Made by a program: the position numbers and the translations under genes | NCBI GenBank assembly: GCA_947172415.1 | Contig: OX359201.1 | Coordinates: 5,382,501 to 5,446,500, forward strand | Length of the DNA stretch: 64,000 nucleotides | Reading direction: 5' to 3' | Source of the DNA: Chondrosia reniformis | Taxonomy: Eukaryota > Porifera > Demospongiae > Chondrillida > Chondrillidae | Notes under the pieces: generated by a model | The model's database searches: none | What the model saw: the letters and a program-made list of their open reading frames with translations, nothing else | Told to the model about the DNA's origin: nothing | Shown: one piece after another, positions 7,585 to 59,800 of the stretch | How positions within the stretch are numbered: position 1 is the stretch's first letter | Layout: each line of letters opens with the position of its first letter

Positions 7585-8610
7585 ACTGGAAAATCAGTAA
7601 AAACAGTGGACATTTTAAGTTGATTTATTATTTTGTGCACTAACTCTAAGTTACAATGCTTTATCCACTTCTTTACTGCCACTAAATATTGCATGCGTAT
7701 AAAAGAAGCGTCATAAATCTGTTACCAAGTTTTGGCTATTTCCTAATGAACTCAGCATAAAAGAACCAAACTACACAGAAGTTCTTCACATGAGAGAATG
7801 CAGTCATGATACCGCAATGTACCATTTTAATTCTTTTAATACCATCACTTGTTGGTTAACATTGGATGTATTTAGTTGTGTTAAATCTACATTTTGTGGT
7901 CTTTTGAACATTAGCAAAGGATCTTTGAAAGGTTTTCAGAAATAAAGAATTTAAAAACAGAAATATAATATAGCTGATCATATTGCTGTGTCACCTTTAT
8001 ATAGTGCTAAATGGGACAAGATATAGCCCTAGTTTGCTTTGCAAACTGAAGTTGGTGGCTTACTAATGAAAATATTATATACAGTACAAGTACCATTTGT
8101 ATTACTTTCATCCAATCAGTTATCAACTATGATCATGAGCCTTTGTGACAATTTTAACAAATGTAACTTTTTATTCAAAGTAACCTAGTAAAAGGCTTTA
8201 AATTGGACTCGTTGCACACTTCAGGATTAGAATAACAGTGTATTTTGTTAGTTTTCCATGGGTCAACCTGTCTATTGGCTATGCCAGCCGATCATAGTAC
8301 TGTATTAGTATTATCCAAACCTTGCTTTTGGTTATAGACGTATATATTATGAAGTGATAAGTGTTTTTTTGCATTCACTGTATTATTTCTGCTGACCTTT
8401 GGGTTGAAAAGTTATACCAATTCAATAAATGTTGCTGATGTTTAAATAGCTAGTTATCATGTGTTATGTAATGTGTGTCTCATGACGTAATGACCTTGTA
8501 TTTGTAGGAGTTGAGATAATGTTATAGGTATTACACTTATATTTTCAGTGATTGAGTAATGGTCCACCTAAAATGATATTCATAGCTTTTTATCACTATT
8601 CATGAGTCCT
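7585..8610. other. Intergenic region between PLAA and the aromatic-rich gene
   Basis: No exon-like open stretch, known repeat family copy or RNA gene was recognised. It presumably holds the PLAA 3' UTR (AATAAA near 7940) and upstream sequence of the next gene. Confidence 0.5.
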
Positions 8611-8615
8611 TCAAG

Positions 8616-8622
8616 TATAAAA
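8616..8622 (+). promoter_or_regulatory. TATA box of the aromatic-rich secreted protein gene
   Basis: TATAAAA, 62 bases before the ATG at 8684, at the spacing expected for a short 5' UTR. Confidence 0.6.
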
Positions 8623-8683
8623 CAGTGAGCCATATGTAAGTGGCTACAGCTAGCTGTCCAGGTATAGTAGCAGCAATAGCAAG

Positions 8684-11370
8684 ATGAGATCAATTCTCTT
8701 TCTTCTTTTGGCTATTACTTTGACCAGTGGTCAGGAATCATATGAATTCTTCAAGGAGTACGATACCTCAGACTTTGTAGTTGTAAGTTGACAGCTGAAT
8801 TGGAATATGTGTGATTAATTCATTAAAAGAAGATACTGACTGCTTTGCTGTGAAATAACAAGGATACCTCAACTGACTTACACTCACAAGGTGTACAGCC
8901 CTGGAGTTGAGCAGAATAATAAAGAGAAACTCTTGTATCCTCATCCAAAGCTCTCACTAGGTTTAGTTCCCTATGGGCTTTTTAATCTAAAGTACATGTA
9001 GATCGATGTCACATGTTGAAAAGTTGTGTGTTAAATTATTCATACAATAATAGCTGAATCATGTTTTCAACCCTTTTTAGAAAACCTTTGAAGTGTCTGA
9101 AGATGACTATTTTGAGAAATATTTCTACTTTGAAGCACCTGAATACAGCACTGGCTGTGCCTGGTACTATAAGGACTTCAAGATCCCTTTTGACACTGAG
9201 TTTGGTCACTTTAGGGCTAGCAGTGAGGACGGAAGACTTAGCTTTGTGTATCCCATGAAGGCGAGGTATTCAGGATATTACAAGTACACTTGTGGATACA
9301 GGAACTACTACTATTACCTCTGTGAGTAATGCTAAGTAATGAATAACATTATTGTTCTTTGCCTCTAAAGGGTTTTAATATTGAAAGGCTTAAAGGAACT
9401 GTTTTAAAATCCTAGCTTTGCTAGAACACATTGTATTAACCAATAACATCAGCTTATTCTACAACATCACTATGAAAGTGGTTGACCCTTAATCTTTTTA
9501 ATGATATAGTTCCCAACCAAGATCAGACTTTGGTCAGGCTTAATATCTCCTAGTGATTATTTCTATCACATCATAGACTTTGTATCCAATTAACTTCAAA
9601 TATTTTATCATACCTTTGGAGTTATTGACTCTGTGTCCCTATGAAGGCCCCACTATCCTTACAGTACACATGTATCTCATAATTAGTATAATTCCAATGC
9701 TAGTGTTTATACTCTGCTATACTTACAGTATACATATAATTCCAATGCTAATGTATATATTATAATTTCTTTGTACAGATGTGAAGCCATCCTCCTATTC
9801 TGACATGTATCCATTTGAAACCACAGTTAGCGATGCGTCCTTTAACAACAACTACTTGTTCAACTACGTATTTGAGGGTTACACATTTAAAAATGTCACC
9901 TTTTCCAACTTCTATGGCCGAAACATTCGATTTGTCAATGCAGTTTTTGAAAATGTTTACTTTGAGTGGGATTCCGATGCTGACCTTCCCTTTACTGTCG
10001 AATTTGTCAACACCGTCTTTATTAACACTGCATTCAAAAATGCAAAGTTTGCTGATTCGATCTTCCAAAACTGCCGATTCGTTGGAGGCTATCCAGTTGG
10101 TTTCGAATATGAACCAGAATATCAGACATCTCACTTCACCTTCTACTATCCAACCATGTACAACACATTTTTCTATAACGTGGAGTGGAATGATGCTAGC
10201 TTCTATGGTGGGAGAATTTTTAACACTACATTCTTCGAGAACAAATTTGTGCGCCAATCCTGGTACAAAGTGAAATTTGAAGGCTTCACACAAAAGTGGA
10301 TCAGCTACGATGCCTTTACCTATGAAATGTATCCATATTACTACACCTACGAGAATGGTGAATACAAGTATCTCGTGTATATGCCCGACACCGATGGACC
10401 TTTCCAAGACTACGACTATTCAGTTCGATTTGTGGATTCCAGCATGTACTTTGACAAATTTTTCTTCACCTACTTTTATTCGGTGGAATTCAGATCAAGT
10501 TTCTTCCAAGGAACTGCTTTCAGAAGGTCAGGTTTCTACTTTACCAGCTTCTTCTACAGCAACTTCTACTTTGTCCGTTACTACTCCAATGAAGTCTTCT
10601 ATAGCATGAGGTTTATTGGTGGCGAATTCAGTAGGTCTGAGATGAGGAATATGGAGGGGAAAGCAATGTACTTTAGTGATGCAAGATTCTATGACTGCAC
10701 TTTCTACTTTAAGAACTTGGCTAGTTTGTCTTTCTATCGTTCCACCTTCTCCCAATTCTACCTAAGAGGGTATGATTCTTCTGAAATAACAGATTTCTAC
10801 ATGGCTGAAACTTATGCAACTTTCTTTTACTTCTATGATTTGTTCATTACCAACTTCTACTACTATCATACCGCTTTTGACCAGCTCTATTACACTGACA
10901 GCACCTTTTTGTATGCTAAGGAGTACAATGAATATCATTATTCATATCGATATAGCGGGCAGGACTTTGGTAAATATGGTGTATGCTATTATGGGTTTGG
11001 AAGGTATGGTGGTTACCATGGTTACAGAGATGACTATTACAGACCTGGATATGGGGCAATGGAAAGGCCTGATGAGGGATACTACTATTACTACTGGTGG
11101 CAAAAATTCGACTTCTCATGCAAGAAACAGGAAGAATACGGCTACAAACACAATGGTTATGGTAGCTACTTCTACTGTGCCAGAGAATATCTAAAGTCCG
11201 ACTTCATGTTTATTTCCAATGGCGTCTACTTCAGGGGTGATTACAACATAAGACCCGAGGTTATGCAATATGACTACCCTACTGAGTATGACTACTTCAG
11301 GAGGTACTCCTACGTGCAGGAGAAGGAGCGGGAAATGACCCAGTACTTCGGCTGCTTTGAGTATTACTAA
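8684..11370 (+). CDS. Secreted Ig-like / pentapeptide-repeat protein, extremely Phe/Tyr-rich
   Basis: Not recognised as a named gene. Three exons (8684-8782, 9081-9321, 9779-11370) join in phase to 643 aa. Residues 1-16 (MRSILFLLLAITLTSG) are a signal peptide. Residues about 34-115 look like one Ig-fold domain: CAWYY supplies the first Cys and Trp, and YSGYYKYTC supplies the second Cys in a Y-x-C motif. From about residue 125 there are pentapeptide-like repeats with Phe at the centre, for example AVFEN VYFEW and TVFIN TAFKN AKFAD SIFQN CRFVG, with a second run SVEFR SSFFQ GTAFR RSGFY near residue 350. This pattern is known to form a four-sided right-handed beta helix, as in the lumenal domain of SV2. 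Residues about 510-560 are Gly/Tyr-rich (YGGYHGYRDDYYRPGYG, GYYYYYWW). No membrane segment follows the signal peptide. A structural or adhesive extracellular role is only an inference. Confidence 0.85.
8910..9040 (+). repeat. Dispersed repeat family A, copy 3
   Basis: In intron 1 of the aromatic-rich gene. Carries actcttgtatcctcatccaa, gctctcactaggtttagttc and a diverged acatgttgaaaagttgtg end. Confidence 0.65.
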
Positions 11371-11714
11371 GCGTCCTCTGGGAGCCATGGATTGGATGTG
11401 TGGTAGAACTTGCTTTAGATTGATAGCTGAACTATATAGGTCTATAACTGCTTTAACTCCTAAACTACATTAGATTTGTGATTTTTGTACAATTATTCCA
11501 ATCCAGTGAGAATACTGATATATAGAGTTTCGGATCAAAATGTTTCAGATATTGATTATTATGAATCATGTCAGTATACGCATACAATACAAACATACGT
11601 AAATAATAGCACGTATATACACTGGTGCATGTTCTTACAATATCACCATTTTTTCACAGTGAAAATTATATAAACTGTATTCCATTTTGAATTATGCATA
11701 TATACTTACATATG

Positions 11715-11720
11715 AATAAA
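11715..11720 (+). terminator. Candidate polyadenylation signal AATAAA
   Basis: AATAAA 345 bases after the stop at 11370, the first exact match downstream of the aromatic-rich gene. Confidence 0.4.
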
Positions 11721-13642: not shown

Positions 13643-16600
13643 TTATGCATCTGCAAGTTTCTTTCTTTCTTGTGCCAGTTGAAAGACTTTGGTTGTTTCG
13701 TCCAAAAGAGAATTTAGAATAGCATCAGCAGTTCTCATTTTAATTTCAAATTCTTCAGAGTCAAACTCGGTCCATTTCCTTTCATCAGCCCTTAACTCCC
13801 TTATCAACACAGCCTCTAGGAAATCTACATCCTTTCCGCCTGGGCGCCTCATGCCGTGATGGAATCTTGCTTTAGGAAGACGAACAGGGAGACGACCTTC
13901 AATTAGCTTGAAGAAGACCTGCTGCTTAACTGACTCCAAAGTGGGCGGCTCCGCTGCAACTGAAGACTTTCTTCTCATGACTAGTCCAGCCAGTTGGTTT
14001 GTGGCTACTTTCTGCTGTGGAGTCATGAAGGCCTCTTGTATCTCCTCAATAGCCAGTTGATATATTAATTGGAGAAATGCGTCACGACACTTCTTTTCTT
14101 CTTTTGATACCAAATGAGCAGCAGTCTTTTTAGGAGGTTTGATTTTAAGTACATCTGGAGGGGCTGTGTTTGGTACTGAACCTGACTCAAGTGAGTTATG
14201 GAAGTCATTCCAAGCTACTTCTGTGACCTTATCAACACTAGCTTTGTCACGTGGAAGGAAGGAGAGCTCAGTGTCTGTAAAAGAATGTTCAGCAATGAGT
14301 GATTCTTTTGTGCTCCGCTCAGAATTGTGCCTCACTTTACCAGTAACATGGTGTGCATGGGTGGTGTCTAAATGAGGAGTGTGAGGGGGACTACGTTCGG
14401 CTGCCAAAGCCCTTCCAGGCCACTTTGGGGGTGAGCCTGGAGGGGAGGGTGGAGGAGAAATAGGTGATGGAGATGGTTTCTGAAACTCCCTTTTGGGGGG
14501 TTCCAGAATGGTATTGCTTACGGGGAGAACTGTGGGTCTCGCTTGGTCAGTTTTAGTCTCAGGAGGTGTTCTAACTGCCATCTTACGAGCTTCTTCTTGA
14601 GCCAAACGTTTGGTATTTCTTATGTTAAGCACTAAAGAGATCTCTGATTGAAGGAGCATTGACATTAAATCATTTGTAACACCTTCACCAATTCTTTGGT
14701 GCTTTGATTCTCTCTTCACAGCCACACTATCCCTTTTACGAATGCTACCAATGTCTTTAACCATTTCCTTCACCAAACCATTCATAATGTGATCCGTTAT
14801 AGCGTCCACCTGCCTCTGCCTCCTATCCTGTCTATTCTGTTCATATTCCAGATTCTTTTCCTTCAAGTCCTCAGGTTCTTCCCTGCCGATTGATTCTGGT
14901 AGAACCTCTTCTAGCTCAATAGAAGATATCTCACTTGGTGTGACCGATTCCTCCTCACTTTCTACCTCCTCTGGTTCCTTAACCTTTTGTGAGGTTGAAT
15001 CCAAGCTAATGCTAACTTGCTCTTCGAAAGGGGACCCCCTGTACTCGCTTCCAGAGTCACCACTACTCTGCCAGTCATCCTCAAGTAGGGACACTTTACT
15101 TGGAGGTGCAAATATGCCATGCTCTTCGGGACACTCGAAATAGGTACGACCTTTAAGTGTACCATTGTTGGTACCATTAGCCTCATCCAGTTCAATTCCT
15201 AGAAATGTTCCAGAAGAGAAGTGAACTTGCCCTATGTACCTCACTACCCCTGGCACTGCGTTCCCCACAACCACCTTCTGCCCCAGCCTGAATCCCTCTG
15301 CAAGCTGACTGGTGACATCTGTCGCTTGAGGTGGCTCAGGTGTTCCTTCTTCTGGCTCCAAAGGTGTATCGTTGAGTGCTTCCTCTTTTAGAAGTGGCTC
15401 CTCTAGAGGTTTTGCCGGCTGAGCATCATTTTGAGCTGTGACAGTTTCATTTTCAACAGCAGTCAAGCTGACTTTCGTGGCAACCACATCTTCAACACTT
15501 TCAGCTGAGGAAACATCATATAAAGTATCTTCTTCCTTATTAATGTCCTCCTTTATGCTACTGGTTGTTTTAACTTCAGTAAATTTAGAAGAATAGCTTA
15601 GATCTTTCAAAGTGCCACCTTTTGATGGAGTTACGGATTTTCTACTGGGAGATAGTGTACGACTTGAGGAAGAGGAAGCACGAACTGGTATTCTACTGGG
15701 ACCTTTGGAGGAAGACCTTGAGGGACTACTAGACATGGTTGGCAAACTTTTACTGGTTGTGGCAGGACTGATGGCCTCTGTTACACTTGAAGTGGATGAA
15801 ATTGAAGGATTCTTAAGTTTTGAGTCTACAATTGAAGCAGGTGACACTGAATGATCTTTCTGAACAGGGTCTTCCACAGCCAAAAGAGTCTCATCCTCCT
15901 CTTGTACAGAGAGAACTGTTTGTACATGTTTCAGTGTTTCTTCAGATTTAGAATCCTCTGCCTGAGGGCCATTATCAGTGAAAGGAGTATAGGAATGGGA
16001 GGTGTCCTGCAGCTTAACTATAATTGGAGACCCCTGGTCCCCTCCGAGGGCCTCCTCAGCCTCACTAGCACTAGTAGTACCACTGTGAATGGACACATTA
16101 GTTCGGCTAATAGACTGCTTTGCTCCTTCTAGCTTTTCTTCCAGAGCCTGTGGAGCAGAATGGACATACACGTACATACATTTATACACAATAGTGAACT
16201 AGTAAACATATTGAAAAAGCTCTTAGAAAAGTACGCAAATTACGTACTCACAACTATAATATCACTGTGCTAGAAGGCATTTTCAGAGAATACCACTACT
16301 CATCAGTAGCACTGGGTAGCATTTTAGAATCACTTAGTTACCAAGTAACCAGACTTATAAAAGGGATTGGTCAATATACAACATACGTAGCAACTACACA
16401 TGTACAGTACATTCTCTATTGGCATACAGCAGAACACTTTAATGTAATATAAGGTACCTTATCTTAATATCTAAGTGGATGTACTGTATACCGTACATCA
16501 TATAAACATACACAACAGACTAATCTCCTAGTAATACGTAAATCAGACTGGTCTTCAAAGTAAAAAATAAAAATTAACACAAAAGTACAATTACTGTACG

Positions 16601-19600: not shown

Positions 19601-22600
19601 TTATTGAATAATAAACTTCATTCATTAATTTTCATGTATATTCTCTGTATATTCAAAGGGCTGGTGTATGACCTAATACTGTGTTTAAATCTGTACAGTG
19701 ATACAGTGAGGGTTACAAAGTATAACTACGTAAAACTTGTATTTTGATATCCTTAAGGTCCATTAGATGATTTGTACACTCCGAGACTCCCTCAAGATTG
19801 TAAGGAGGTGTACTCTAGAGGTTGTACTCAGTCTGGAGTCTATCTGATTGACCCTGGATGCTTTCAGCCTATGTGGGTCTACTGTGACATGAATGGTCGC
19901 TGGACCACCATACAGAGAAGAATGGATGGATCAGTTGATTTCCAACGTGGATGGGGAGACTATGTCCATGGATTTGGTAACCCACGTGGTGAATATTGGC
20001 TGGGCTTGGAGAACATACACTGTCTAACTACGAGGCACCAAAGATGTACTCTTCGTGTTGATATGACTGACTTCAATGGAGTATCAAAGTATGCACAGTA
20101 CAGCTTCTTTATGGTAGGGAATTCTGCTAGTAATTACACTCTAGAAATATCAGGATATTCAGGAACAGCTGGAGACAGTATGACAGCTAGTGACAACCTT
20201 CAAAGCCTTGATGGGATGCAGTTTAGTACTTATGACAGAGATAATGACAAATGGTCAAGTAATTGTGCAGAATACTTTGATGCTGGTGGTTGGTGGTTTA
20301 ACAGCTGCTTCCATGGTGCACTAAATGGTGTATACAGACACAATACACCTGCAATTCAATGGCATACCTTCACAAATAAGTTGAAGTATGCTGACATGAA
20401 ACTTTACTGCTAAGAAACGTGTTATATATAAAAGTAGTCAATGTGTGAAAATTGTACCTACATATATTATAAAACAGGACAGTGCCATTAAATTAGAATC
20501 AGTTGCTTAGTGATGTGTTTGTATGTGTAAAATTAATGGAGTCTCTTCTATTAGTGTGAATGAAACATAACAAAGTACATACGTAGTTACCAGTTCATGT
20601 ACATCAGGGTTTCATTCAGGGTAAAGGAGGGCATTCTCCCCCCCCTCCCCTTGCTGAAGAGTTGCCCCCCCCCTTGGATTTAGGTTGCCACTTAACTATT
20701 TTATCAAGGTATGACACCACCCCTGTGAAATTTTAAAAGTCAATTTTTGCCCCCCTCACAAAAATTTCAGGATGAAACCCTCTACAGTAACATATATACT
20801 GTTAACCTTGAAATATAACCAACCTGTGGCGCTCTAATTCAGTGCTGTACATACGTGTACAAATATAATACGTATAACAGGTACGTATCCAGTGAAGTGG
20901 GGAAAACAAAGGAAGAGGAAGACATTTAGGTTCCAAATATCATCTTCTCTACCATGTAATGTATATTTAATGAGACAAACCATTTTCCAAGGTAAGGATG
21001 TATCACTGATTTGAGAGACAGGTGAGAGAGAGGAGACTGACAGAGAAATCTGGTCATCCTCCTCAAGTTTCCTAGCCTTGTTACGGTAGGACTGAGCTGA
21101 TAATCTCATCTTCCCAATGTCCTTCTGCTGCAGCATGAGACGCTTTATCTCTTCTCTCTCCTTTCTCTGGACCTTTTGAAGGTTTCTCAGCTCAGCCTAA
21201 CAGAGAAGTGATATGAACCAGCTTGGAATGAAGCAAGTCTCATTGCTACTAAATCACAACCACAAATACACTACCACTAGTATAAACATTATTGTTATAT
21301 TGTTATTGTTAGATTTCTCATCCACATAAAGTGTATATACAGATCGGTAAAGGCTATCAACCCAAGCATTTAAATACTAATAAACAATCCTTTGAGTTAG
21401 AAGAACTTAGAGGGTACATCTAATGACATGTATCTTTTGAAAGATGATCCTTTCAAAAGGTAAGTTCGACACAGTTAGAAGGAATCCTTATTCTATTAAT
21501 GATATGCAAAAAAACTGATTACTATTGAAGTACTGCAACTTGACAGAGATTATTACTGATAACTAAGTATGTACATCATGATAATGTATCATTCCAATAT
21601 ACTAGCATTGCCATGGTTATGCACTGCCACACCTTTTCATTCTGATACTTCCTCAATAGACCCTTCTCCTTCTGCAAGATGGCTGGCATCTTGTCATCAG
21701 CACCCTTCTTCTGAATCAACCTAACCAATACACAGTACTCGTGTCAGTCTCACTTATATACACATGCATATACACATGTAACAAGATACGCACTCATGAA
21801 TCATGAATTAGTACTGTACATATGTCAGTAAATGCATATACGTACAGTACATACGGTACATACATAGCACCTATTAATAAAATAGTAACAAATGGACTAA
21901 TAGGGATCTTGTATAGATGAATGTACATGAATATATTACTCATATGTATGTATGCTCATATCTCACTTCTTCCACTGATCCAGGACTTTCAATTTAGCCC
22001 TGGTTTGCTCGTGAAGTGCCTTTTCTCTTAGTTTCAACAAAGTGCTCTATTAATATTTATGAATGATCATACATTCCTTTAAACAATATTACAAGGTGAG
22101 GGGACACAATATCCTACAATATTGATGGGATAACCTAGTTTAAGCTTCTTCACTAGTACACATTGGCAATCTGACTTTCTTCAAGGAGGGAAATACCCCT
22201 GCCCCCTAAAGAAACCCTGGTATCAAGGAGGGAAATACCCCTGCCTCCTAAAGAAACCCTGGTATCAAGGAGGGAAATACCCCTGCCCCTTATAGAAACC
22301 CTGGTAATCATCACCTAATGTAGATCATATCAGTTTTGTGGTCTCTTGTCGTGTTACATGCCACACCCACTGTCGTGTTACATGCCACACCCACTGACCT
22401 GGTGCTTGGCTCTTGTCTCCTGATCATTGACCAGCTGTGTGATCATGTTCAGGGTAAAGTTGTCAAAGGACACTTCACCACTCCCAACTCCACCTGGTGA
22501 CAGATGACTGGCCTCAGATACTGACAGGTCGTCATGGAGACTGGACATGGAGGACATGAGATCAGGGTGACTGGAGAAGGAAAGCTTAAGAGGATGTATG

Positions 22601-37600: not shown

Positions 37601-40600
37601 GAAAAGGAGCAGTCAACTTTTAATGACAGAACACAACTCATCAGTTTGTATGGAGATGACTTGGGTAGAACTCACTCTATCTTTGGTTTAGGCTTCGGCT
37701 GACTGGCAGGCCAGAACCTCGGTGAACTGGTTTGTTTCTTCATCATTCTTTCATACTGGTTCAGTGAAGCCATTCTGTGCTTGAAAGGAGGACATACTAA
37801 TTGAGTTTTCTCTTTATCTTCAACAATATCACCTTCCCTCCTGTCTCCCTGTGAACATAGGCAACAACAAACTGCTTATTGAAGAAATATAGCACAATAA
37901 AGTAGGTCAAGGAGAGAAGAGGAGTAAGGAGGAGAGGAGGTGAGAGGAGGAGAGGGAGGGGAGAGGAGGAGAGGGAGGGGAGGGGAGGAGAGGGAGGGGA
38001 GGGGAGGTGAGGGAGGGGAGGGGAGGTGAGGGAGAGGGAGGGGAGAGGGGGAGAGGAGGAGAGGGAGGGGAGAGGAGGAGAGGGAGGGGAGAGGAGGAGA
38101 GGGAGGGGAGAGGAGGAGAGGGAGGGGAGAGGAGGAGAGGGAGGGGAGAGGAGGAGAGGGAGGGGAGAGGAGGAGAGGGAGGGGAGAGGAGGAGAGGGAG
38201 GGGAGAGGAGGAGAGGGAGGGGAGAGGAGGAGAGGGAGGGGAGAGGAGGAGAGGGAGGGGAGAGGAGGAGAGGGAGGGGAGAGGAGGAGAGGGAGGGGAG
38301 AGGAGGAGAGGGAGGGGAGAGGAGGAGAGGGAGGGGAGAGGAGGAGAGGGAGGGGAGAGGAGGAGAGGGAGGGGAGAGGAGGAGAGGGAGGGGAGAGGAG
38401 GAGAGGGAGGGGAGAGGAGGAGAGGGAGGGGAGAGGAGGAGAGGGAGGGGAGAGGAGGAGAGGGAGGGGAGAGGAGGAGAGGGAGGGGAGAGGAGGAGAG
38501 GGAGGGGAGAGGAGGAGAGGGAGGGGAGAGGAGGAGAGGGAGGGGAGAGGAGGAGAGGGAGGGGAGAGGAGGAGAGGGAGGGTAGAGGAGGAGAGGGAGG
38601 GGAGAGGAGGAGAGGGAGGGGAGAGGAGGAGAGGGAGGGGAGAGGAGGAGAGGGAGGGGAGAGGAGGAGAGAGGAGGAGAGAGAGAGGAGAGAGGGGAGA
38701 CGTTTCACCAATTTTGGACCAGATTTAAATCAAAACTCACATTATCCATGTCTTGAAGGGAGATTGGAATAAGATGGGCCTCAGTGGTAAAGACAAAGTC
38801 ATCTAGATCAAAAGGAAGATGATTTTCTTCAGCAAACAGCAAATACAAGTACTTGAATGTCTCAGCCAACACAAATGAGTCCATCCTAGTGAACACAGAG
38901 AAGAAAATAATAATCATGTCTACAAAGTGGATGCATGAAAACTAACTAAAAACACCATTTTCCTGTATATATGGTGCATACGTTGGCATGCATATGAGGT
39001 CAAGTAAACATATACGTAAATACAATAGACTATATAGAATGTTGTGACTTGGAGCAAGCCTTTAGAGCTTTGCATGAGGATACAGTCAAATTTCTTTTCT
39101 TCTTCCTTCTTCTGTATATATACAGTATGCTTGGAGTGTTGTGCATCAGGAATTCATTTAGGAAATTTTTCAAGGGAGGCAAGATCATGATGCAAGGTAT
39201 TTTGGTGGTGCAGTGGTGTTAAGGCTCAGACAGCCAGACCTTCTTGTTAGAAAAATGTGCATGATATGGGAGAATTTCAAAGGGGGGGAATTCCCTAAAT
39301 TTCTCCCGAATGAAACCCTGTGTATATATGTGCTAGTACCTGTCTTCATGAGCTTTAGTACGCACATCTTTCATGGCTGCAAAACCACATTTAACTCTGG
39401 CATATTTATCAAGACTTTCCACAATAGATTTCCCAATGTCAAGGTAATACGTGTCCCCAGTTGCCTTATATAGAAAGTAGGTGCTCTCAGCAAACTCTGG
39501 TCTTAAAGGATGACTGCCCCATAGGACCCTGATCAGGTCAATGTTGATCGCCTCTGGCAGGAAGTCATGCTTGTGGTTCACATAATAGAGGACATCATGT
39601 ATGCTGGCTGCCACATCTATGTCGCCCCAGAGGACCTGGAGGCCTGGCCAGAAAGCGAGCAAGGAGTCAATTGAGGATTTGCGACTTGAACGAGGTTTGT
39701 GCATGTCACAGTCAATTAGGAAGGGTCCATTTGCGATATACATCATGATGGCATTGTAGTGCTACAAGGATACGAAAACAGGGACTGAATCAGTGTAGAA
39801 TACCTACCTATAAGCAATACTCATTATAATATGGCTTACAGGGCCTAATTTACCTATTCTGGCAAGCCAGACCTTACATTCACTCCATGATAAAAAAGTG
39901 AGATCTGGTCTAATTTATATACTGTATTTGTCCAAATAGAGGCCCAGGCCTCTATTACACACACAGGAAACAAACACCAAGGAACAGTTTATGGTAAATA
40001 CACAAACCTTCTGAAATCTTTCCAAATACACTTCATCTCCCAGTACTATGTAAGATTTGAGACAGTACTCATAGTACGAATCACTCCCAGCTCCAACTCC
40101 ACTATCTGTCAATTAAATGAAACAAAATGTACTAACATTTGAAGCTTTAAATTATGGGAAAGTTACATTTTCATTTTCATATAGTCACTATTGTACTGAG
40201 GCACCTCTTAGTGTGATACGGCTGCTTATTAAGAAGCCTGGTTGAGATATATTAATCAAATAACAGATCTCTGTGAAATACCAGGACTTTACAAACTGAA
40301 TTCACACAATAAATAACATACATGTACATATAAAAATGGAGACTAAACATTAAAAATGAAATTGGCTAAACTGAAAGCATATTGCAGTATGCACTAAACT
40401 GATTATCTCCTTAAAGTGAAGCTTAATTCATTCAATATGGTCAATTCTCTGCCATTACCTCCACAGTTTTCACTGTCTGGCACAGTAATGATATTCATAG
40501 ATGTGGGACTTACCCCTTCTGATCCATTCACCAGTGTTAACGTTGATGATGGTTCCTACCAAGTTATGGTCCTCATTTCTCTTCTCCCATATCACCTCCA

Positions 40601-43775: not shown

Positions 43776-46700
43776 TTATTCTTTGTATCCTGCACTCCTA
43801 ATATGGCAATCCAAAGCTGAAAGACTTATTAAAATTGCTTCCTGAAAGTACAACAGAAAACTATATATAACTATATGCATGAATAATCTGATACTACATG
43901 TTATGTCTACTCTGTAATAAATTAAAAAGCCCCTAGGGAACTAAGCCTGATGAGAGCTTTGGATGAGGATACAGGAGTTTTCTCTTTCTTCTTTTGCTCC
44001 ACTGGGCCAGAGAGCTGTTTCTGGGAATACCACCCTTCATCAGTGACCTTGGAGGTCTTTCTGGAAGTTCTTTGTCACCTTAGATGATCCTTAGCTCTCA
44101 CAAATTTGGTTATACATATATTTATCCAAAAAATGGGTGCCAGAATGTAAAGTGTTAATAGGTCAAGTCTAAGAAATAGATATATGTCTGTATGTACCTC
44201 GGTACGTATGGTTCTGCTTCCTTGATCAGGACATGTGTTGAGGTACAGGTTAAACAGTTTACTGACATCCCCTTCTGCTAGTGACTCGTCAGACTCCAGA
44301 CTTGCTTCCAAACCTTGCAAGCCCCCAAATACGATCAATAAATGCCTAATTATGCATACAAGTATGCAGGGTAGCAAGGGACTTTCCCTAGTAGAACATC
44401 TCATAAATCAAAACAATGCATGCTTTACAGAGCATTGGCACATAGACATGGCTTTTGAAGGGGGAAGGGAGGAAGGTGAAGCTCATCCAAGCCATTACGA
44501 CGTATACCCTTTCAGAGTAGAGCATTTCTAAGTGTATAATCATGTTGCTTATCCCTTATAAGGATAATTAATTCAGCTTGATCGATTGCACTTCTCAGGA
44601 AATATGAGTAGGTGGGGTGAAATCCAGAGTCAAGTTATTATAAAAGGTAAGATCATTGTTTTTGTGATCTTCAAAAGTGTTCCATTTCAAGCAATTCATA
44701 GAATGAAAGCACAATATGGTTCAGGCCTTTCAAGCTAATGCAGCACTCGCTAGTACGTATACTCAGTAGTATACGTACTACTACTATATGTACATGATAT
44801 AGTAATACAGATACAATGCATACTTGAAAGGAGGCAATTGGGAGACCTCATTGATGGGACTTCCCCTTTCTGATGTACCAACTGTCAAGTCATATCCACT
44901 CTATGGACACATACATCAAGAGATACCAAAATAAAATGGCTGACCAAAGTAAGACACTCTCTCATAGAAGTATTGCATGCATATCAGTATATTTTGAGCA
45001 TTGTAAGATAATTCTTTTCTATACATACCTTATAAGGGCTTTCTGTGAATACTGCTCCAAAGGAGTTTGCTAACCTTACCGTGTATCCCCAGTAGAGCCC
45101 CAACTCTCTTGCTGGTGTGCGTGGTGAAACAACTGCCCCATGGCAGCGCTTGGAACCTGTACCAAACAACAAATATACCATGGCAGCAATTGGAACCTAT
45201 ACCAAACAACAAATATACCATGGCAGCGTTTGAAACCTGTACCAAACAACAACTGCACTCCTCAACAATGAAGGATTTCTAATACAGTGACAGTGTTCAC
45301 TTTGTTAACATTAAAAGTCATATCAACTATCAGTGCAGTGGCAGAGTTAGGGGGAGGGGGGCTCTGGGTGTTGAAGCATCCCTGCTGAGTTTTAGTATTA
45401 TCCATATTTCAAACCTTTGGTAAAATACTAGCCAAACTGTTTCATACCTTTTTCTGTCATAACCTAGCACCCCCCCACCTTAGATCTGCCCCTGCAATGA
45501 TAAAAGATATACAGAAATGACATCACACTGTAATGATATTCATAGGTACCTTCTTTATGCGTTGAATCAATCTTGACAGTCACTCGCACCCCGGGTTTCA
45601 AAGTCTTATCAATGCATACATCCTACACACATGTACACAGCACAGGACAAATATACAAGATAGCAACACCTTATACTGTACAACCAGTTTCTTGTGTTGA
45701 CTAAAGATTTAGCAATTTACCTGTAATGTTTACAATTTATGGTATTTAGTTACCATGGAAATCAATGAATGCCTCGTTTTTTCACTACAAAGAGTGTGAA
45801 TAATACAATCGTTGCAGTGGATTGCATTTTTACCATAAAGAAAGTCTAACTGACAAGTTTATATAAATCTAGTGAAGGTGCCGTATTGCCATATACACTG
45901 AACATTCAGGCATTAGATTACAACAATACTTTCAACCCTCCCCCTCCACATAGTCACATTGTTGGCCTAAATGAGTGTGAATGTTATGTTTATAACTTTC
46001 ATAAAACATTCCTTTTCCTATTTACCCAATCATTGGAACAGTTTAATGATGTGCAATGGAGCAGAAGAATAAAGAGAAGACTCTTGTATCCTCATCCACA
46101 GCTCTAACTTGGTTTAGTTCCCTATAGGCCTCTTTACCATAGAATAGACACAGTATGTAGGGAAATGGTGTTTCTATTATTCATTAGATGTGCAATGACA
46201 TCAATAACAGCTACCTGTTTAGTGCCAACATTTACATAGGATCCTCTTCCCTTCTTTGTATTGGGTGGGCGGTCCAGCACCACTCCTTCTCTATAAGGTG
46301 CCTGATCCTCCTGTCTCATGTGGTGCGGACAGTCCAATGGGTTCAGTAGACCTGCAAACTGCAAATCTTTGTGGATCGGAAACAGCAACTTTCTCAAGTA
46401 CTGAGGCGTCTCTAAGTATTCCAAAATTCTCACTAAAAACAAATTTGGGTTTTGGCTCTTCAAATTTTCCCTATACAAATAAATAACAGTCTGTATGACA
46501 GATTTCCCCCAGGTGTCCATCAACTCACGTCTCCTTGGCAACAGTTTCATCAAACACAACAATTTCATCAACACAGAACACACAGGCGGCCCTGGCAATC
46601 TGAGGGAGTTATCAAAAGAAATTTTAGTCACCATTATTTGTTACTAAAGGGCAGATGTCTCTTTATATACACCTTATTATAGCAGTTTTATAATAGAGAT

Positions 46701-53827: not shown

Positions 53828-56800
53828 TTATAAGTCAGCATTTGCTCTTGTAGAAACCTGATAAGTCATGGTCATTGTAGAGTTTGGTTCATACCAATTC
53901 CCTTTAGTCTTTTGAGGCATGTAAGTTCGTGCCATCACATGAAGAAGAGTTTCCAGCCGATGGACTAATAAGGCTAAAAACTGGATGAAAATCACAGCAA
54001 AGTAGACAACCAGAAAGAGAGTAGGAAAAGTGTTCTGATTGATCCCCCATTGTTCCAAGAATGGCAGCTTGAATGAGAGGACCAGCATCATCCATATGAT
54101 GTTGAGGAGGAGGAGGCCCACTACAACAACGTTTCTTAGTTCCTCCAGCTTCTTCTTCTGAATGTCAGTGTCAGGATTCAAGTAAGCTGCCTCTGGCTTG
54201 AGTATGCCCTTCTCTCCAACTAGATCTTCCCAGAACCTCTTTTCCTCTGTATTCCCTAATTGTGCTAGAGTTACAGATGTGGTGCTATCTATGAGTCCCT
54301 TTGCTTTTCTGATGCGTATGTCTCCTAATAGAAGTAAGGAAGATCAGAGGAGATGACCTAACCATGATAGATGAACAATCTTAAAGCAATAACTCTATAT
54401 ATTATGTTGATGACTGGATAGCAAATTGTATTGAAAGAATGACCTCCTGTCTAATATGTGTGATTCATTGATTGATATAGATGGTTAAACAAAAGGATGT
54501 GTGATAATGAAACCACAACTATTTTAATCCAGTAATAATACTTTGGCTAATGAGAGCTAAGGTAAACACAGATCACTGCAAGACTTCAGCCTCCAGTGGT
54601 CCTATAACACCTGGGTTCTACTGAAAGTACTATCAAAGCAACTTACTGCTACGTGGATATTGTAACCTCTTCAATCCAGCTAACAGCTGCCTCAAGTGAG
54701 CTATCAGGAAGAAAGGCAGAGATTTACATACATGGGTACATGTAATAGACAGACACACATTTGTATGTAGTTGGAGATTTAAGGGTGATTCTGTGTGCTG
54801 AAGCACCATCCCCTCTGGGTTTGTCATTTTGAGATTGTGTTAGCCATATTTCAAAATTTGGCATACATTAGTCCTACACCCTTTCCCTGTCAAAGTCTTA
54901 TACACAATCCTATCATATTTGATTCACCCCTGACACACACACACGTGTGTACTGCCTTTGGTAATTTGGCATCTTTTATAGAATACCAATAAATTCCATG
55001 GTACCCTTAAAAGAGTGTCTTCACATTTGGCCTATACGTACGTACATAGAAATTGAGATACATATAGATAGAGTATACACATGTGTCTGCATGGATTGAA
55101 ATGAATACTAAAACCACCCACCTATATGTACATCCTGCCACCCACCCAATCATGATAAAATCTTGTTACTTAAGCTAATAAACAATATACACACCTCTCT
55201 TTGTGATTCCCATTCCACGTAGATCCTTTTCTGTGAGACCGATCAGATTCTCAATATCTGAACCAAAGTAATAGCCTTCTTCTTCAAAGAGTTCCTTGTA
55301 TTCTGACAGATGTAGGTGTTCTAGAAATTCTTTTACTGTTTCCTGAAAAGTTGAGAAGAGAATATTGGAGGAAGAGCAAAAAAGGATAAATGGTTATACT
55401 TCTTACTGGAACAAAACTTTCCAAAAGTGGGGCCTGGAGATTTCTGATTTCTTTAAATAAACGAAGTTGAAATCCTCTCTTCTTTATGCCAATCTCTTGT
55501 AAGTCCTAAGTACAATGTACAACAAGTAAGCATAAGTGTGCTTGTATGCTGGAAAATGTGCTTGTATGTTGGAAAGTGTGCTTGTACGTTGGAAGAGTGT
55601 GCTTGTATGTTGGAAGAGTGTGCTTGTATGTTGGAAAGTGTGCTTGTATGTTGGAAAGAGTGCTTGTATGTGTGTGTATGTACATACCTTTCTGGTAAGA
55701 CCATTAATAAACTCAAGTCGTGTGTAACCATGCTTTTCAAATAGTTTAACATATCTCTACAAAATGGCACAAAACATATTCAAAAACAAATGCATAAATT
55801 AAAATACAATACAGAATTTTTTTGCAGTTCTGAAGATTCTCAGAATCAGACATACAATACACAAAGTTAGACACAAGTTAAAGTGTACATTCAAAATATA
55901 TATAGTCTTGCTAATTGTTACAATTAGCACATGTACATAATCTACTTGTCCTAACAATTGAACATATGAAGATTCAATGTACCTCACACTTCCACTGAGT
56001 AAGTTTCTTTTTCAGATCCTTCTCCATTTCAGGATATTCAATATTTACTACATAAAATTACAATTCATACAGTTTTTACCAGAGATAGTTATGGTAGTCC
56101 TATGGAAGCTATCAAAATATGTAACAACTATCCTAACACACAAACTATATTATTGTTGCATCTTCTGGATGTAGCTAACAACTGCATAATGTATATAGGT
56201 TTAGTTCAAACAGCTGGTACATACAGTACATAGCTATGGAAGGTCTAGCCACTAATAGAAAAAGATTAATTTTTTTGAAATGTAAGTAAGTACCTTCCCT
56301 AGTTCTTTCTGGGTCATCTTCATCAAAGTCCTCATCGTCATCCTCTACGTCATTATCCTTGTCATCGAATGGGTCCTTTCCTCTGGTTGAGTCTTTTCTG
56401 ACAATCCTATTCCAACATGCACTGAAGCAGGTGAGACACTTTCCCCAAAAGAGCTGCAAATACCGAAGGAGAGTGTTTTGGTTGGTGTTGGTTTCAGTGG
56501 CCTTATCCACACGAGTCCCCCAGCTCCTTGTGTTTAGGTTACAGGCTGAATAGATGATTAATAGCATATAGGCAGAGGGTAGGCCCACTATATACAATAC
56601 AAAGTATAGCAGAATGTACGTCTCTCCGGGATGTAGCAAAGCGACTAGTATTACAATAAGGGAGTACCCCAAGAGGTATATCGAATCTAGAGGCATTGGC
56701 AACGTAAAGAGAGGGTCCTGATTTGGTAAAGAGTCCAAATAACGGTTTTTCCTATCATCCGCCTCTTGCTGTGATTTGTTGGAGAAGTTGTGATCCAATG

Positions 56801-59800
56801 TCCGATGCAGCCAATGGGGCTTGTTGTAGTCTGACAGATATGGGATGGATTCCAGTGCTTGTACATAAAGGCCCACAAAGGCGACAGCCACAATCAATGC
56901 AAACACAAATGTTAAAAATTTGGCAACATTAAGCTGCCATTTTTCTGGGGCTATCAAGCAGAGGATCCCAAAACCTAGAGCTATGGCAGAGAAAATCCCA
57001 ACCATTGCATAAGAATTGAGCCCAAATGCAGAGTAAACGCCAGACGCCACTATAAGGATAATTGTGGCTGGTGACACTACAGTAGTAAATATGATAATTA
57101 GTTGATAGAGGATGAAGAGGTAATTAACACTGTTGTTGAATAAAGTGATTTCTTTGGCACTGGATACCACCTCAATCAAATTGGCAAATGTCGAAGGAAT
57201 CCATCGACGTCGCTGATTGTAAAATTCATTAAAGGTATCGGGACAGTATGTGCTATTCTCGGAGACTGCGGCATACTCCAACTTCCAACCTGCCTTTATT
57301 AGCAGGGTACACAACCATCTGTCCTCCCCCATGTCCTTGGTGAGGAACTCGCTGGCCGTCGATACATTGGACTGGTAGATTGGAAGAATCTCTTTGAGTG
57401 CCTCAACTCTAAAGACACTGAAACATCCAGGACTGCAGAGCACACAACCTAATACATGTTCAGCAGACTTTTGGAACCAATGACCAAATGCATATTCAAA
57501 TACTTGATAACCAATAATCGGGCCGCTTCCAAGGGGATGGGTGCGGGCACACACGGCACCCACCATGTCATCCCGAACTAGGAAATCCAACAGAGCTGCA
57601 ACTGATTCAGTTGTAAAGTCAATATCAGCGTCAGTGGTAAGAATAAATGTGTTGTGCGGATCAAACTTCCTTGAAACACTTCTTTCGCTTTCCTTTATCT
57701 TAAAATTGATAATGTAATTCATGTACATGACTTGACTCCATCGCTTTTTATTCTTTATTTTTGAGTTGTCCTTCAAATGAATTGTGAATGGGAGAACATT
57801 CTCGATTTTCCAATACAATTGCATGCCGTAAGGTGTAATGACCTTTTTTCCAGTAGCCACTTTAACTTTGATAGTTTCCTCTAGGACGCTGCACAGTTGG
57901 AGGGCATATTCATTTAACTGGGAAGCGTTTAATGCGCTGTCAAAGAATATATGAGACTCAAAATGGGGGGCACCAGCTTCCTCGCTGTCTCCTTCATTGT
58001 CATTATCTAAAAAGCGTCCCTTCTGTGCTTTTATGGCGTAAGCAATGCGATAGATGGAGGTGAGCATTTGTCTCATTTCGTGTTCTCTCTCGTGAAACAT
58101 GGTGGAACAGATGAAGACAGTACTCCCAATAGAGCTAGCTGCTACATTATTTAGGGTGTGTAGTACAACTTTCCGAACCCACTTAACTGTTCTTCTGTTT
58201 AAGAGAAGAAACGAATCCAAAAACAAGCCATCATAGTAGGGAGAAAAGAAGAGAGTTATTTCTCTACTCACAGGTACCCGAGGTCCCTTCCAAATGAATG
58301 ACCCTAATGCAAGTATTTGGCTAATCCACAACACAAATAGAATGGAGGAGAGGTATACATTTTCCACATCACTGCTGACCATATATGGTAGAGACATGTA
58401 CTCTTTGTAAAAGGGGAAAATGTCAACTTTATAAATAGTGCTCAGCCAGTACCACCCAAAGGCAGCAGGAGTTGATAGAAGCAGAGGAATAGTGAAAGCA
58501 AAGGCTTGAAAGGTTGACCAAAGGGCAAGTAAGGCAAAGACGTATGCTCCTAAACCTCCAAAAATTTGACAGAGAAATATGCCAACTTCGTCAATATGCC
58601 ATTCTGTGAACCCAACACTCAAATTTACTTCATAATCCAACCCTTCATGTATAAATAAGTAGGAAAAGAATGGTAGACAAATAAGTCTTACTGCAGCATA
58701 GATGAACCCTGTATAGGCAGAAATAGTACACTTTAAAGAACTGCAGTGAAATAATGATTATCTAAGTCTATAAAATATACATATTTATACATACATAATA
58801 AGTATTAATGGTCACCAAGTATACAATTCCCTCTGTTCTACATATACATACACATATGTTACAGTATGTATGTATGTATGTATAGATTGTCACATATCCC
58901 AAATTTAATGAAAGCAGGGTTTGGTTTTCAAGAAGCAGAGACGAACATTAAAGCTTTCAAATTATAATAGAATTGGTTTAATGCAGCCTCGCAGGTCTCA
59001 CTGTCAATGTAATATACTTTATAACTTTTTCAAAGGTATTTAAATTGTACGTGCACATGTCTTACAAAAACATGAGAGGTAATTGCCTCCCATATCACAT
59101 TAAGCCTGTACCTCTAGTCCTTGAGGTTGACTGGTATATCAGTGGATGTATATACAGGCACATATATGTATGTACTGTATATAAAGTTTGTATTACATTA
59201 TGTAGGTAACAATGTTAGATGTATTTGTAACTACAGTAAGTGTTACATTAAATTTTAAGTATATATAGTTACCTCCTCTTCGTGTTGCATAATCCTCACC
59301 CCCTGCATACTTTCTGTGAGAGGAATCTCTGGAGTTTTGCGGTAACTGACTCTTCTCCTTCAATTTTTTAGAGTTGCAAATGAACATCTGTACCCGAGGA
59401 GACCAAATGAATGAAAGGGTTAGGAGACAGGCAATAATGCTGGCCAGAGAGGGAATTCCCCCCTGCATTTTAAGCCCCAAGTATAAAGCCACTCCAGCAA
59501 GACTTAACAGCTGTAATAAAGTAGCCAGGAAACTTGTGATGCCGTTATCCAGGATGGTGGAGCTGATGACTTTAAATCTCCTCCATTTAGTACTCTGGCT
59601 GTCAAGGATGCCACTATTATCACTCTCCACTACATCATGACCAATACGACTGTAGCCATTCCTCGCTCTCTCTTTTGAGCAACATCCTTGAATTGCTTTC
59701 AAAGTGTCACAAAATGCAGAAAAGGCAAAGATGCCTGAGGCAAACAAAATGCCAGCCCCTGGGTTCACCTGTGTTATTACTAGGAAGGTGAAAGAACTCA

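Follow-up and report, generated by a model that had tools for sequence, protein, structure and literature searches.

A family of three sponge genes with one exon plan and contrasting residue themes on a pentapeptide register

On chromosome 13 of Chondrosia reniformis, a sponge, lies a gene for a protein in which tyrosine and phenylalanine dominate, and much of which is written in a five-residue register. What kind of protein is this, does it have relatives, and what might so unusual a composition be for? The window that we analysed is a stretch of 64,000 nt (C13:5,382,501-5,446,500), and the genome searched comprises 117,379,552 bases in 15 contigs; the assembly, odChoReni1.1, is described as 14 chromosomes plus the mitochondrion, 117.37 Mb in all, its chromosome 13 measuring 6.9 Mb and its N90 scaffold 6,903,244 bp (PMC12181767).

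A three-exon gene for a pentapeptide-repeat protein

We find that the gene lies on the forward strand in three exons with GT/AG at the junctions and no internal stop, and that its product is 643 aa long. Exon 1 (8684..8782) encodes a signal-like N-terminus of 33 aa and ends in phase 0 at a GTAAGT donor, exon 2 (9081..9321; 80 aa plus one base) encodes a putative Ig-like module and ends in phase 1, and exon 3 (9779..11370, stop codon included), placed by the gene model and the register score, encodes a pentapeptide region followed by a tail. The loop-interrupted pentapeptide runs span residues 128-492 (9820..10914; 57 pentads in seven runs), and composition marks off a Tyr/Gly-rich tail at residues 501-643 (10939..11367). 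An AATAAA at 11715..11720 (+), ~345 nt 3' of the stop, is a possible polyadenylation signal as judged from its sequence, and 8600-11500 contains no tandem DNA repeats. The signal peptide was called by eye, with no predictor, from the hydrophobic N-terminus, and no membrane-like stretch follows it; together with the canonical junctions this agrees with the earlier note, made from the DNA letters, which had described a secreted protein and correctly looked to sponges for its setting.

That note had also proposed an Ig-like module, and exon 2 does bear a weak likeness to one. Cys 59 and Cys 104 are accompanied by C-x-W and SG-x-Y elements, the second Cys standing two residues beyond its place in the usual G-x-Y-x-C, and the Cys pair is missing from the corresponding exons of the two sister genes described below. 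None of the three exons matches a Pfam family at E 10, and the window exon alone gives no match below E 0.2. A profile of three members, namely this exon and the two sister exons, returns nine matches among PDB sequences at E 10, seven of which are Ig-superfamily chains; nectin-3 is the top match (E 0.0046) and the sole one below E 0.05, and CEACAM1, IL-1 receptor-like 2 and nectin-1 are among the others.

The register of exon 3 scores 107.6, compared with 33.4±6.0 in shuffles, none of which (0/100) reaches that value. The earlier claim of pentapeptide runs therefore stands, with its count of two corrected to eight: we find runs of 10, 6, 10, 11, 12, 5, 3 and 3 pentads, separated by loops and including some poor pentads. 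Four of them (10, 10, 11 and 12) contain the at least eight contiguous pentapeptides by which PMC8145042 defines pentapeptide repeat proteins, and the 11-pentad run is Phe-centred in eight consecutive pentads. Phe occupies the centre i in 41 of the 57 pentads up to residue 492; counted by residue, 41 of the 59 Phe in the runs are at i and 29 of the 34 Tyr at i-1, i+1 or i+2, where position counts here and below omit one short terminal run per protein (3 pentads; 4 pentads). Phe pairs are enriched at lag 5 (24 observed vs 10.8 expected), and Phe also stacks at lag 20 (21 vs 10.0, z 4.2); Tyr shows no clear stacking at lag 20 (9 vs 6.9, z 0.9).

The window protein is thus a pentapeptide protein by its register, though it falls below the curated Pfam cut-offs: the whole protein scores 33.4 bits (E 4.9e-8; cut-off 38) with Pentapeptide_4 (PF13599), 20.8 bits with PF13576 (cut-off 27), 14.6 bits with PF00805 (cut-off 20.2) and 27.4 bits (E 4.5e-6; cut-off 29) with LD_SV2. 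This last model passes its cut-off at the window gene in the genome search (31.2 bits, with neighbours). From its sequence, the pentapeptide region of exon 3 would fold into a right-handed quadrilateral beta helix. Pentapeptide proteins and SV2 luminal domains are already known; in the libraries searched, the most specific models that match are those for pentapeptides, LD_SV2 and SV2, in line with the earlier note, which called the protein unrecognised.

Luminal domain 4 of SV2A/B/C (LD_SV2), like the window protein, consists of Phe-centred pentapeptides on the luminal or extracellular side of an animal protein, and the luminal domain of SV2C is the nearest solved structure (5jmc_B, E 2.7e-5, over window-protein residues 133-216). 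The SV2 model TIGR01299, however, is matched (E 2.9e-4) solely at its positions 495-577 of 742, and the window protein is far longer, carries an Ig-like module and lacks the transporter part: SV2 proteins combine a 12-TM transporter with the luminal domain, and here we find no MFS match and no membrane-like stretch after the signal. Against the SV2-like genes of this sponge the window protein reaches an hhalign probability of 60 over 25 columns and a BLASTP value of 3e-4, and the LD_SV2 model matches 6 of 14 control genomes, bacterial ones included, passing its cut-off in one. Because the match to the sponge's own SV2-like luminal domains is weak and LD_SV2 also matches bacteria, we reject SV2 as the origin; the repeat is of the same kind as in SV2, with descent unproven. 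Two of the SV2-like genes are adjacent, at C1:7,896,069 (L053, 3384-4358) and C1:7,911,420 (L054, 3609-4526); both have MFS parts and a pentapeptide luminal domain, and the frames that were compared share 84% identity.

Two sister genes on the same chromosome

The earlier note had suggested a search for paralogues, and the source genome holds two sisters on the same chromosome. A genome search with window exon 3 gives one other match (E 3.1e-22, 28% identity), sister 2, which encodes 683 aa at C13:6,207,117-6,210,139 on the reverse strand (L011); LD_SV2 and pentapeptide models lead to sister 3, which encodes 1707 aa at C13:6,117,575-6,123,341 (L052). All three genes have a signal exon, a phase-0 intron, an Ig-like exon, a phase-1 intron and a large helix exon, and where the starts of their helix exons were aligned, 19 columns are invariant over the stretch submitted.

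Window and sister 2 helix exons match at 2e-28 in BLASTP, with an N-terminal score of 171 where other sequence windows give at most 52. Sister 2 and sister 3 match at 4e-10, from the exon start; the first 115 aa of their helix exons score 90, a value reached by 0/500 pentad shuffles and compared with a best of 42 for sister 2 against 268 other windows of sister 3. Between the window protein and sister 3 the score is 92, but that value is equalled or exceeded by 17 of 268 other sister-3 windows (top score 97), and the strongest BLASTP stretch (4e-12) is out of collinear order; tested the other way round, 0/60 other windows and 1/500 pentad shuffles attain it. Given those equal-scoring windows and the lack of collinearity, the kinship of this pair rests chiefly on sister 2 as intermediate and on the shared gene structure. 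The three paralogues on one chromosome form one family.

Genome searches that start from exon 3 of the window gene, from sister 2, from a 151-aa piece of sister 3 or from two of the Ig-like exons find no further members. The 151-aa start of sister 3 retrieves the other two genes at E 0.15 and 8 only, and the Ig-like exon of either the window gene or sister 3 matches nothing but itself; since the sister-3 piece is so weak and the best candidates alone were scored, diverged members may escape. The 64-kb window holds no extra copy at E 0.01, and none of 531 pattern matches in prokaryote genomes or 381 in viral contigs is a confirmed relative. Separate searches with pentapeptide models give 24, 22 and 35 genome matches; open frames were inspected in 11 matching regions (L057 and L058 in part), and several of these are simple-repeat frames (e.g. 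L055, L056, L060, L061).

The bacterial pentapeptide proteins MfpA, Qnr, HetL and HalA have, like this family, a five-residue register with Phe, Leu or Met at the centre. Sisters 2 and 3 score above the Pfam cut-offs of PF13599, PF13576 and PF00805, and for sister 2 bacterial pentapeptide proteins match ahead of SV2. The models of particular bacterial proteins are matched far under their cut-offs (sister 2 with HalA, E 3.1e-13, 49.6 bits, cut-off 250; sister 3 with HetL, E 3.6e-7, 29.9 bits, cut-off 260), and, unlike the bacterial proteins, the sponge family is secreted, bears introns and includes an Ig-like module.

Residue themes and their placement

The window protein contains 16.8% Tyr and 13.8% Phe, together 31% or almost one residue in three, as extreme as the earlier note had claimed, and only 6 His in 643 residues. 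This load is evenly spread, at 25/80 (31.2%) in the Ig-like part, 117/373 (31.4%) in the helix region and 45/143 (31.5%) in the tail, whose 34 Tyr, 11 Phe and 17 Gly in 143 residues bear out its description as Gly/Tyr-rich. Sister 2 is rich in His (14.2%), Met (11.3%), Trp (6.1%) and Cys (4.2%), which sum to 36%, and has 16 HxH motifs; across its Ig-like part, helix and tail, these four residues make up 16.2, 38.5 and 42.3%, and Tyr+Phe 6.8, 10.2 and 4.2%. Sister 3 has 15.3% Asn and 13.1% Thr, and 196 N-x-S/T sequons, against 2 in the window protein and 1 in sister 2.

In Fisher tests the Tyr+Phe content of the window Ig-like part differs from that of sister 2 (p 1.7e-4) and sister 3 (p 1.3e-4); the His+Met+Trp+Cys content of the sister-2 Ig-like part is not significantly different (p 0.07 and 0.13), nor is tail Tyr+Phe between the window protein and sister 3, with its 43-residue tail (p 0.12). 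An even residue load is therefore clear across the whole window protein and, in sister 2, across helix and tail. Because Tyr+Phe is equal in three different modules, bulk composition, beyond fold alone, seems to have been selected in the window protein, which is the simplest reading of these numbers.

Two other origins of the themes were considered. GC3 is 0.51 in both the window gene and sister 2 and 0.46 in sister 3, all above the 0.37-0.44 of five other window ORFs; as it is equal in the first two genes, we reject base composition as the cause of their difference. Slippage is rejected for the same two genes, each of which has no tandem array. Sister 3 contains five short tandem rows of period 15-30, and its frame (L052, 3146-7842) includes near-repeat blocks at about residues 427-663 and 701-943, with a sequon in most pentads.

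When the window protein and sister 2 are aligned, window Tyr stands opposite His 26 times, Trp 12, Met 11 and Tyr 8 times, and window Phe opposite Phe 25 and Met 18 times. Over the 59 pentads of sister 2, 45 of 48 His are at i-1, i+1 or i+2, 22 of 36 Met at i and 17 of 18 Cys at i-2. The inside/outside split, in these counts as in those of the window protein, is partly built in, because the register score rewards F/L/M at i and A/C/S/T at i-2 and penalises His in either place. At lag 20 the core residues of sister 2 stack (Met 13 vs 5.2, z 3.6; Cys 5 vs 1.0, z 4.1), and its His shows no clear stacking (13 vs 9.5, z 1.3). Of the 246 pentads of sister 3, 70% have Asn at i+2 and 65% have Thr/Ser at i-1, so spaced that the protein is possibly a densely glycosylated rod. 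Paralogues with one exon plan, near-disjoint residue alphabets and a retained register offer a natural experiment on the limits to re-coding a beta helix. A literature search by title, which most subscription papers lie beyond, returned no shared scaffold with swapped residue themes.

Candidate functions of the family

Mussel byssus, squid beak and worm jaws are hardened extracellular materials in which partners of a Tyr type and a His type occur together. Oxidised Tyr forms dityrosine or, via DOPA-quinone, reacts with His, and His also binds metals. The Tyr- and His-rich structural proteins of byssus, beak and jaws are largely disordered repeats, unlike the sponge family with its pentapeptide register and Ig-like module.

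The account that we favour, tentatively and at somewhat under an even chance, is that one secreted scaffold was duplicated and its copies refilled, with Tyr/Phe, with His/Met/Trp/Cys or with sequons, to give rods of one chemistry each that jointly build a multi-component matrix. The window protein would carry its Ig-like module at the N-terminus, followed by a right-handed beta helix divided into several blocks and by a flexible tail rich in Tyr and Gly, and the paralogues would keep this layout and register, with outward side chains that change from copy to copy: Tyr in the window protein, His over a Met/Phe/Cys core in sister 2, and in sister 3 a sequon for N-glycosylation at most pentads. 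Each helix would then be a rigid rod densely displaying a single chemistry. Sponge peroxidases or tyrosinases could oxidise the Tyr rod to form dityrosine or quinone links, the His rod might serve as its nucleophile or metal-binding partner, the glycan rod would hydrate the matrix, and the common Ig-like module would tie all three to one shared partner. That such phenol, imidazole and N-glycan arrays are complementary matrix parts, the Tyr-bearing window protein being probably cross-linked by oxidation, is likewise a proposal that we hold a little short of evenly balanced. It would amount to a kit of complementary parts for the matrix of an animal that lacks siliceous spicules.

The genome contains 20 An_peroxidase matches, six of them nearly full length, and 10 tyrosinase matches, eight nearly full length; these genes are a necessary condition only, as they are widespread in animals. 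Five of the tyrosinase matches cluster in about 32 kb at C7:4,846,401-4,878,534 (G000), with four long open frames and one with stops. Chondrosia reniformis is described as having no siliceous spicules and as using collagen fibrils for support (PMC12181767), so that the suggestion of a skeletal protein in the earlier note needs narrowing and the extracellular matrix of the collagen mesohyl would be the natural location; the matrix, adhesive and recognition roles named in that note are candidates only. Against cross-linking, Phe, which is not oxidatively cross-linked, is likewise high in the window protein, and the absence of clear lag-20 stacking of Tyr or His counts against precise ladders. 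Against a matrix role more generally, the even Tyr+Phe load across modules also fits storage.

Storage, in which three secreted paralogues, each holding one residue class, would accumulate in eggs or storage cells, to be degraded in development, is on the whole unlikely, yet it is a genuine rival to the matrix proposal. The near-identical 31.2, 31.4 and 31.5% Tyr+Phe in three structurally different modules, and the His, Met, Trp and Cys of sister 2, are what such stores might look like, and the sponge is stated to be oviparous with external development (PMC12181767). Insect hexamerins offer an analogy, and an analogy only: arylphorins and Met-rich hexamerins are likewise secreted paralogues that differ in residue class, one scaffold with aromatic-rich (over 15%) and Met-rich (4-11%) versions as summarised in PMC2861669, next to 31.7% Tyr+Phe+Trp in the window protein and 11.3% Met in sister 2. 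The gene layout differs from that of the sponge genes, aromatics reach 18.2% in HEX 70a vs 31.7% here, and the window protein matches no hemocyanin-type Pfam family at E 10, the domain that would place it with hexamerins. A store would need neither a pentapeptide register nor Phe inside and Tyr outside, and sister 3, with its 196 sequons, appears built for glycans. If storage were nonetheless the true function, the family would give an early-branching animal its own parallel to arylphorins and methionine-rich hexamerins.

Recognition, metal handling and optics are each less likely than the matrix or storage reading. Cell-surface or secreted recognition factors, whose Ig-like module and helix surface would bind self or microbial ligands and whose paralogues would vary the binding chemistry, seem distinctly improbable to us. 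Their PDB profile matches are chiefly adhesion and receptor chains (nectins, CEACAM1, IL-1 receptor-like 2), sister 3 is rich in sequons, and Chondrosia is classed as a high-microbial-abundance sponge (PMC12181767); however, genome searches find three members and no expanded variable family, a binding site would not need a uniform bulk composition, and the Ig-like exon has no Pfam match and loses its Cys pair in the sisters.

We think it very unlikely that the family handles metals, with sister 2 as a Cu/Zn-binding rod and the window protein as its redox (Tyr) partner. Sister 2 has the residues for it: His makes up 14.2%, Met 11.3% and Cys 4.2%, there are 16 HxH motifs, and 45 of the 48 His occupy outward positions. 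But Cys at i-2 is frequent in pentapeptide proteins generally, to go by the consensus in PMC8145042, and His stacking at lag 20 is unclear (z 1.3). The idea accounts, moreover, for sister 2 alone, and not for sister 3 or for a window protein with 6 His in 643 residues.

High-refractive-index proteins for optics, a reading prompted by the most refractive residues (Phe, Tyr, Trp, His, Met, Cys) of the window protein and sister 2, are hardly credible, as the proteins are secreted and not cell-packed, Arg is not raised (5.0% and 3.8%), and we know of no lens or reflector in Chondrosia reniformis. Weight-averaged dn/dc, computed from a residue table and not by the published method, is 0.208 for the window protein, 0.207 for sister 2 and 0.194 for sister 3, and crystallins are reported to be enriched in Arg, Cys, Met, Phe, Tyr and Trp, and reflectins in sulfur and aromatics (PMC11118217).

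Elsewhere in the window, a stretch of low complexity at 37797-38772, open in several frames on both strands, is probably no gene but a tandem repeat. On the reverse strand lie a CAP-Gly ORF (13643-16189; PF01302, E 8.9e-23), a putative RNA methyltransferase ORF (46134-46634; PF02598, E 6.3e-34) and a chitin synthase-like ORF (56175-58640; PF03142, E 5e-33), and on the forward strand a single open frame at 19772-20413 encodes a fibrinogen C-terminal domain (PF00147, E 1.7e-60).
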